DNA of 14,120 bases, from contig JAIVHD010000076.1 in NCBI GenBank assembly GCA_020201235.1, positions 1 through 14,120 on the forward strand, given 5' to 3'. This DNA comes from Lysobacteraceae bacterium. Its GTDB lineage: Bacteria > Pseudomonadota > Gammaproteobacteria > Xanthomonadales > Wenzhouxiangellaceae. Of the stretch, positions 8,417 to 10,874 are shown piece by piece. Under the pieces are notes generated by a model. The model was given only the letters and a program-made list of their open reading frames with translations. It did not search any database and had not been told where the DNA came from. Within the stretch, counting starts at the first letter, position 1. The number at the start of each line of letters is the position of its first letter. The position numbers and the translations under genes were made by a program.

Positions 8417-9097
8417 ATGTCGCAGGTCACAGTTTCACAATTGGCGGAAGTGCTCGGGGTTACCCCCGATCGTCTACTGGCGCAGTTCAGGGAAGCCGGT
8501 ATTTCGATCGGTGAGGCCGATGCGCCGGTGACCAATGACGACAAGAAAAAGCTGCTCGCGTTCTTGCGCTCCTCGCACGGCAAGAACGAGAGCCGAGATG
8601 ATTCCGACGCACCCAAGAAGGTCACCCTGAGGCGTAAAACTGTCAGCGAGCTCAAGGTTCCTTCAGGAGGCGCTGGACGGGCCCGCCCGGGTCGCGGGCC
8701 GGCACCGTCGCGCACCGTCAACGTCGAAGTCCGCAAACGCCGGACCTATGTGAAGCGGGGCGCAATTCAGGAGACCGAGGAAGGCAACGCCAGCCGCGAT
8801 GAGGCGATCAAGGCGCTTGAAGAGGCGCGCACACAGCGAGCCGAGGCTGAGCGCGCCGAGCAGGCGCGCGAGGAGCAGCGGCGGGCCGAGCAGGAGGCCA
8901 CCGAAAAGGCCGAGCGTGAAGCGGCCGAGGCGCGTGAAGTCGAGCAGGCCGAAGCCGAACGGGTCAAGGCCGAGGAAGAGCGCATGCGCGAGGCCGAGGA
9001 ACGGGCGCGCGAGGCGGTCGAGGCTCGCTCCAGAAAGGTTGCCGACGAAGCGGCGAAACAGGCACTTTCAAATGCCAACCCAGCCGGTCAAGCGTGA
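8417..9097 (+). CDS. infB: Translation initiation factor IF2, N-terminal part (separate frame)
   Basis: Codes 226 residues of the IF2 N-terminal region, ending at TGA 9095-9097 before the G-domain. Order: IF2_N helical domain (1-50, MSQVTVSQLAEVLGVTPDRLLAQF), the IF2-associated segment (about 66-115, KKVTLRRKTVSELKV and TVNVEVRKRRTYVKRG), then a long Ala/Glu/Arg helix (about 125-215) predicted as a single charged alpha-helix or coiled coil. ATG 8417 has an excellent Shine-Dalgarno, GAGGAG (8406-8411), 5 bases upstream. The rest of IF2 lies in the next frame, overlapping by 26 bases. The Gly/Lys/Arg-rich linker that normally joins this helix to the core is missing. Either the gene is truly split, it is joined by frameshifting, or an indel or deletion has broken it in the organism or assembly. 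Confidence 0.85.
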   Translation: MSQVTVSQLAEVLGVTPDRLLAQFREAGISIGEADAPVTNDDKKKLLAFLRSSHGKNESRDDSDAPKKVTLRRKTVSELKVPSGGAGRARPGRGPAPSRTVNVEVRKRRTYVKRGAIQETEEGNASRDEAIKALEEARTQRAEAERAEQAREEQRRAEQEATEKAEREAAEAREVEQAEAERVKAEEERMREAEERAREAVEARSRKVADEAAKQALSNANPAGQA

Positions 9098-10874
9098 AAT
9101 CGAAATCCCCGAGTCCATCACGGTTGGCGAACTGGCCAAGCTGATGGCCGTCAAGGCCGGCGAGCTGATCAAGGCTTTGATGAACATGGGCTCGATGGTG
9201 ACGATCAATCAGCCTCTCGATCAAGAGACCGCAATGCTGGTCGCTGAGGAACTGGGTCACGAGGCGCGGCCGGCCAGCGAGAAAGATCTCGAAAGCGAAC
9301 TGGCAGCTCAAATTGAAGAAAGTGGCGATCAAGTGCCGCGCCCGCCGGTCGTTACCGTCATGGGGCACGTCGATCACGGCAAGACCTCGTTGCTGGATTA
9401 CATTCGTCGGGCCAAGGTCGCGGCCGGCGAAAGCGGCGGTATCACGCAGCATATCGGCGCTTACCACGTCGAAACGAAAAATGGCGTGATTACTTTTCTC
9501 GATACCCCCGGCCATGCCGCGTTTACAGCCATGCGCGCACGCGGGGCGCAGGCCACCGATATCGTTATTCTTGTGGTGGCAGCCGACGACGGAGTCATGC
9601 CGCAAACCAAGGAAGCCGTTCAGCATGCCCGTGCAGCTGGCGTGCCGCTGATCGTGGCCGTTAACAAGATCGACAAGCCCGATGCGGATCCGGACCGGGT
9701 CAAGAACGAACTGGCAGCCGAAGAGGTCGTGCCTGAAGAGTGGGGCGGCCAGGAAATTTTCGTACCGGTCTCGGCGATCACCGGCGAAGGGGTCGACGCG
9801 CTACTCGAAGCGATTTTGCTTCAGTCCGAAGTGATGGAACTCAAAGCGGTTCCGGATCGTCGTTGTCGCGGTGTCGTGGTCGAATCCTCGCTCGATCGGG
9901 GACGCGGGCCGGTGGCCACCATTCTCGTCCAGGACGGCACCCTGCGCAAGGGCGACATGGTCTTGGCTGGCGAGCAATATGGCCGCGTGCGCGCAATGTT
10001 CGACGAAACCGGTGGCCCGGTCGATGAGGCCGGACCGTCAATCCCGGTAGAAATCCTGGGCCTGTCCGGTGTGCCGAATGCCGGCGACGATGTGCTGGTG
10101 GTGTCCGACGAGCGCAAAGCGCGCGAGGCTGCCGATCAGCGCAAGTCTCAATCGCGCGAAGGCCGCCTGGCCGAACGTCAGGCGACCAAGCTGCAAAACC
10201 TGTTCGATCAAATGAGCGAGGGTGGTGCCGGGACCGGTGCCGGCGAGCCGGAAAGCGTCAACCTGGTCATCAAGGCCGACGTCCAGGGTTCAGCCGAGGC
10301 CTTGCGCGATTCGCTGGCCAAGCTTTCAAATCCCGAGGTCAAGGTTAACGTTATTTCGTCTGGCGTCGGGGGCATCACCGAGTCCGATGCTTCGCTGGCC
10401 CAGGCGTCGAATGCCATCATGATCGGGTTCAATGTCCGGGCCGACGCTGCGGCGCGCAAGATCATCGCGGAAAATGATATCGATCTCAATTATTACAGCA
10501 TTATTTACGAGGCGATCGATGACGTCAAAAAGGCAATCTCGGGGTTGCTGGGAACCGAGGTCAAAGAGCAGATCATCGGTCTTGCAGAAGTCAAGGATGT
10601 ATTCCGGTCGTCCAAACTCGGCGCAATCGCCGGGTGCCTGGTTGTGGAGGGCGCGGTGAAGCGCTCAAATCCGATCCGCGTGCTGCGTGATAACGTGGTT
10701 GTATTCCAGGGCGAACTCGAGTCGCTTCGCCGCTTTAAGGACGACGTCAAGGATGTCCAGGCCGGAACCGAGTGCGGTATCGGCGTGAAACAGTACAACG
10801 ACGTCAAGCCCGGCGATCAGATCGAGTGCTTCGAACGCTACGAAGTGGCGCGTACGATCGAGTATGAAGCCTGA
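9072..10874 (+). CDS. infB: Translation initiation factor IF2, GTPase core
   Basis: Codes 600 residues from ATG 9072: everything needed for initiator tRNA and ribosome binding. Order: second IF2_N domain (about 10-62, ESITVGELAKLMAVKAGELIKALM), G-domain with G1 GHVDHGKTS (98-106), G2 GGITQHIGAY, G3 DTPGH, G4 NKID, G5 SAITG, then domain II (RGRGPVATILVQDG), domain III (LVIKADVQGSAEAL, VISSGVGGITESDASLA) and the C-terminal fMet-tRNA-binding domain ending RTIEYEA. The frame is open upstream to 8799, but upstream of about 9063 it is only the shadow of the N-terminal frame. HFQ before ATG 9072 resembles the family's HGFxxPT joint, so the original fusion point is near 9063. A weak AGG lies 9 bases before ATG 9072. 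E. coli makes shorter IF2 forms from internal starts, so a core-only product could work. rbfA follows directly. Confidence 0.9.
   Translation: MPTQPVKREIEIPESITVGELAKLMAVKAGELIKALMNMGSMVTINQPLDQETAMLVAEELGHEARPASEKDLESELAAQIEESGDQVPRPPVVTVMGHVDHGKTSLLDYIRRAKVAAGESGGITQHIGAYHVETKNGVITFLDTPGHAAFTAMRARGAQATDIVILVVAADDGVMPQTKEAVQHARAAGVPLIVAVNKIDKPDADPDRVKNELAAEEVVPEEWGGQEIFVPVSAITGEGVDALLEAILLQSEVMELKAVPDRRCRGVVVESSLDRGRGPVATILVQDGTLRKGDMVLAGEQYGRVRAMFDETGGPVDEAGPSIPVEILGLSGVPNAGDDVLVVSDERKAREAADQRKSQSREGRLAERQATKLQNLFDQMSEGGAGTGAGEPESVNLVIKADVQGSAEALRDSLAKLSNPEVKVNVISSGVGGITESDASLAQASNAIMIGFNVRADAAARKIIAENDIDLNYYSIIYEAIDDVKKAISGLLGTEVKEQIIGLAEVKDVFRSSKLGAIAGCLVVEGAVKRSNPIRVLRDNVVVFQGELESLRRFKDDVKDVQAGTECGIGVKQYNDVKPGDQIECFERYEVARTIEYEA

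Follow-up and report, generated by a model that had tools for sequence, protein, structure and literature searches.

The locus analysed here raises the question of whether a bacterium can carry infB, the gene for translation initiation factor IF2, in two pieces. The window, by which we mean the whole 14,120-nucleotide stretch of DNA under study (Lysobacteraceae bacterium, assembly GCA_020201235.1, contig JAIVHD010000076.1), encodes an IF2 N-terminal region and an IF2 core in two different, overlapping frames. The preliminary description of this arrangement had left three options, namely a natural split with coupled re-initiation, programmed +1 frameshifting, and a deletion in the strain or in the assembly. 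Comparison with relatives and with other genes of the same assembly suggests that the split is very probably an artefact of assembly and not a feature of the organism, whose infB is most likely an ordinary gene in one frame.

The two frames of infB and their joint

Contig 7, which the window spans from end to end, is one of 439 contigs in a 2.89-Mb assembly of 83% completeness. The nearest proteins and genomes place this genome in the Wenzhouxiangellaceae. The genes nusA, rbfA and truB stand around infB in their usual order, and the features that bear on the question, all on the plus strand, are the following:

6857..8365, plus strand: nusA, intact and full length against the same-genus genome G003 (88% identity)
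8417..9097, plus strand: infB N-region frame, 226 aa (IF2_N, IF2_assoc and a charged coil, with about ten out-of-frame residues at the end)
9030..9068, plus strand: probable joint region, placed from the alignment
9072..10874, plus strand: infB core frame, 600 aa from ATG 9072 (second IF2_N, GTPase, EF-G D2-like, IF-2 and D2 domains; intact)
10864..11235, plus strand: rbfA
13016..14113, plus strand: start of icmF (fused methylmalonyl/isobutyryl-CoA mutase), cut by the contig end

The N frame starts at ATG 8417, preceded by GAGGAG, and stops at TGA 9095-9097, while the core frame opens at ATG 9072, overlaps the N frame by 26 bases and has a stop ending at 10874; the coordinates, the Shine-Dalgarno sequence and the overlap are thus as first described. 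Judged by their profile scores, both parts are genuine IF2. The N part (226 aa) scores 52 bits against Pfam IF2_assoc (cut-off 24) and 28.7 bits against IF2_N (cut-off 25.3), and the core (600 aa) belongs to NCBIfam TIGR00487 (IF-2) with 864.1 bits, the curated cut-off being 424.4. The single-frame layout of N-region, linker and core in TIGR00487 is replaced in this assembly by two frames.

Missing from the window is the linker that relatives carry between coil and core (TRYGREELHVA..KSKRRKPKRR..GGEHG). On the right side of the joint, the sequence matches the core opening of the relatives again from about 9066, and the exact left edge is blurred by the divergent coil; past the joint, the tail of the N frame is core sequence read out of frame. 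Comparison with the relatives' linker bears out the initial remark that the basic linker is gone and that more than a one-base slip is involved. A one-base slip or homopolymer error at the joint, already thought a poor explanation at that stage, is ruled out by the missing linker. The linker was also sought in the remainder of this genome, where it gave no match; in the absence of a positive control, this empty answer carries no weight.

The core frame is open well upstream of ATG 9072 (691 aa from ATG 8799, within an open frame of 706 aa), the DNA that codes for the coil being free of stops in that frame. ATG 9072 is therefore just one among several possible starts of a core product, and its ribosome site consists of AGG alone, 9 nt upstream.

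Two other genes of the window have uncertain starts. The mechanically called rimP ORF begins at 6140, within a tRNA-Met (CAT) at 6141-6217 (plus strand), and the real start of rimP must therefore lie farther downstream. For an M23 peptidase at 2974-3960 (minus strand), the first 58 residues find no counterpart in the G003 homologue, whose aligned part begins at residue 222 of a 491-codon open frame; either a wrong start or another lesion would account for this.

infB in relatives and in other genomes

The core was matched in all 40 relative genomes searched, and in each of the 29 relatives whose loci were fetched and read, the N-region and core lie in one open frame. Looking for the same break in close relatives was a check proposed at the outset, and with 29/29 carrying an intact, unsplit infB, a natural split conserved in the genus is rejected. 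In the 28 relatives measured (L031 was missed by the motif search and left out), the distance from the start to the core opening exceeds that of the window by 122-299 nt; in the five same-genus genomes, the excess is 155, 182, 155, 155 and 161 nt. Against these five and L008, the window is without the TRYGREELHVA stretch and the basic KSKRRKPKRR run, up to GFQ before the core. At the position of the core-opening Met, Met occurs in five of the 28 measured relatives and Lys or Arg in the other 23, indicating that this Met is not a conserved start.

At the protein level, no conspecific sequence was present among the best 120 of 8000 scored, where the top identity was 89%. Five IF2 proteins shorter than 700 aa occur among the same best 120 of 8000. 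Two proteins (P0001 and P0009) start inside or just past the linker without a Met and are labelled partial by NCBI, which fits contig ends. Four IF2 proteins (P0008, P0010, P0013 and P0023) have in-frame gaps in the coil or linker and are otherwise near-identical to intact proteins; all four come from the source 'src', which we take to be a protein-level assembly, and are perhaps chimeras.

Short infB frames were sought in wider sets of genomes. In the order scan, infB was matched in 281 of 299 genomes and, among the matches listed, eight open frames were shorter than 800 aa, this genome (G000) included; six of these (G067, G141, G208, G217, G226 and G176) lie at a contig end by their coordinates. 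The class scan matched infB in 149/151 genomes and gave 17 rows below 800 aa, again counting G000, three of which were fetched (G432, G353 and G362). The infB of G432 is at a contig end.

Breaks inside contigs were seen in three genomes. In G172 (L117, contig 133), the infB open frame is only 315 aa inside a 17-kb contig, with the break, by eye, inside the core. In G353 (L263, contig 2), another gammaproteobacterium, the frame breaks at ~1531-1552 of L263, on a 329-kb contig, in the coil just before the linker, which is kept, and the first ATG of the core frame is inside the second IF2_N domain. In G362 (L262, contig 1), a single-contig genome, the frame break is at ~1768-1841, after the linker and at the start of the core. 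As read in the sequence, these breaks in G172, G353 and G362 are of other kinds than that of the window.

Deletions elsewhere in the same assembly

A comparison of further genes in this assembly took as references the ORFs of G003 (a ~1.2 Mb, 6-contig assembly of the same genus) and G005 (265 kb, same genus). The share of this genome compared comprised 53 contigs (416 kb); all ORFs of at least 100 codons were used with a 60% identity limit, a lesion was defined as at least 60 nt lost inside the gene, and best matches with internal stops were dropped, which makes the gene count blind to premature stops. This left 71 distinct comparable genes on 24 contigs. An internal stretch of 81-276 nt was missing from eight of them, located on six contigs:

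infB: 152 nt missing by this alignment
icmF: 276 nt missing, in frame; same contig as infB, joint near 13429-13432
nuoL: 222 nt missing, in frame; contig 40, joint near 4090
hrpB: 249 nt missing, in frame; resting on a 24-residue match past the joint and less clear than others
DUF3141 protein: 190 nt missing
HI0933-like oxidoreductase: 189 nt missing, in frame; under the identity limit against G003 and counted through G005 only
LysM/M23 peptidase: 167 nt missing, between two domains in a stretch possibly variable by nature; less clear than others
ftsH: 81 nt missing, in frame; a gap counted inside one alignment and hence detectable in frame only

The same procedure found a deletion in 0/77 control genes, made up of 44 genes of G005 compared with G003 and 33 genes from the infB neighbourhoods of 12 relatives, the latter being a favourable control since these genes are conserved. 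Median identity was alike (75% for this genome vs 74% for the controls), and the difference in deletions is significant with infB left out (Fisher's exact p = 0.0047). Below 60 nt, a single 15-residue gap (infB coil of L034) and insertions (12 and 16 residues) were seen in the controls, and one slight frame discrepancy, close to the start of a gene on L125, was seen in this genome. Lesions like that of infB are thus present elsewhere in this assembly (8/71) and not in others compared alike (0/77), and for that reason we favour the assembly over the strain as the source of the deletion.

The position of several deletions points the same way. Relative to the G003 protein, icmF is without residues 152-244 and with them the beginning of the MeaB GTPase domain (210-379), the nuoL loss is inside PF00361, a conserved transporter domain, and that of ftsH is inside Peptidase_M41; working enzymes would hardly lose these parts. 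In both nuoL and icmF, sequence matching G003 well runs as far as the joint and picks up again immediately beyond it. Outside the count of 8/71, nuoL and nuoM form one open frame in which the end of nuoL is lost (contig 40, L162, ~1926-4961, minus strand), and a YceI gene, below the score limit, is ~160 nt short with a change of frame.

Collapse at a long direct repeat was considered as a cause of the deletions and found unsupported at the four joints scored against G003, which share 0 (nuoL), 3 (icmF), 1 (hrpB) and 4 (YceI) nt; the left edge of the infB joint was too divergent for scoring.

We infer an origin of the deletions in assembly rather than in the cell. The assembly would have joined sequence over short unassembled stretches at many places, losing ~80-280 nt each time, plausibly by gap closing where contig ends happened to overlap by a few bases. 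One such joint would have cost infB its linker and probably some of the coil, and, with a lost length that is not a multiple of three, N-region and core would have ended up out of frame with each other. Ten of the first 12 loci among the nearest genomes listed belong to metagenome assemblies, and this genome is probably one as well.

Alternative readings and known systems

A deletion of the linker in the cell itself is decidedly unlikely. The strain would then live on a core made from ATG 9072 by coupled re-initiation, or from an upstream start, with the N fragment a by-product or working apart. In E. coli, deletion of the N-terminal disordered region of IF2 is reported to give no phenotype at 37 °C and no growth at 15 °C (PMC11838494), so that life with a genuine core-only IF2 is in principle possible. 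The frame is also kept in five of the eight deletions (nuoL, hrpB, icmF, HI0933-like and ftsH), compared with the one third expected by chance, which leans weakly, the numbers being small, towards real, selected deletions. However, the clean deletions in nuoL, ftsH, icmF and the others would then all need to be real, the gene is unsplit in every relative read, and the ribosome site before ATG 9072 is weak.

That the lineage lives with a two-piece IF2, its core re-initiated at 9072 or translated from an upstream start and its N-region a separate protein, is very improbable. The natural split with coupled re-initiation that was first envisaged would be expected to be common to relatives, all 29 of which are unsplit; in addition, AGG is all that precedes 9072, the supposed start Met is Lys or Arg in 23/28, and the tail of the N fragment is out-of-frame core. 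Nothing on a naturally split infB was found in the literature searched by titles and abstract openings.

Genome-wide decay, with infB as one of many real deletions in an organism losing genes, would account for deletions in many genes and yet has very little probability, as point frameshifts and stops would be expected too. Of 135 best matches, 22 contained stops; inspection by eye of the first 150 columns of each, which is not a test, suggested that the stops lay in non-coding frames or in sequence added ahead of the true start. Core genes are among those affected, and the genome, at 2.89 Mb and 83% completeness set against 2.8-3.8 Mb in the genus, is normal in size and not a reduced one.

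Programmed +1 frameshifting at CTT-T (9065-9068), fusing both frames into one protein, has next to no probability, since this site, although in the correct frame for a +1 step, is followed by TCA and no stop or evident slow codon, is not conserved (the frame is intact in 29/29 relatives) and would yield a fused product still lacking the linker. In frameshifting of the prfB type, a stop codon stands in the A site and a strong Shine-Dalgarno sequence lies upstream; the window is like it in the CTT-T step and unlike it in having no A-site stop, no strong upstream Shine-Dalgarno and no conservation.

We conclude that, among the options first put forward, the deletion is supported, most likely as one made in the assembly, and the natural split and the frameshift are not. 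As biology, the infB split is most likely ordinary. Its significance is a cautionary one: deletions of ~80-280 nt at assembly joins can give essential genes a split, shortened or fused appearance, and with 8/71 compared genes affected, claims of split genes, gene loss or fusion drawn from this assembly call for read evidence before they are trusted.

Two known situations come close to the arrangement in the window. Three IF2 isoforms are described in E. coli, from which parts of the N-terminal disordered region are missing (PMC11838494). The likeness lies in a core without the N-region, whose loss is survivable at 37 °C; unlike the gene in the window, which is broken and without its linker, the E. 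coli gene that produces these forms is a single intact one. A parallel to our assembly reading is offered by the pseudogenes of public assemblies, many of which, as reported by Cooley and Wright (2024, PMC11017572), are assembly errors, with assembler, platform and coverage named as causes. There, as would be the case here, the breakage of genes belongs to the assembly and not to the organism. The cases named in their abstract are frameshifts and internal stops across genomes, whereas we see deletions of ~80-280 nt, some of them in frame, within a single draft genome and in the assembled sequence alone.
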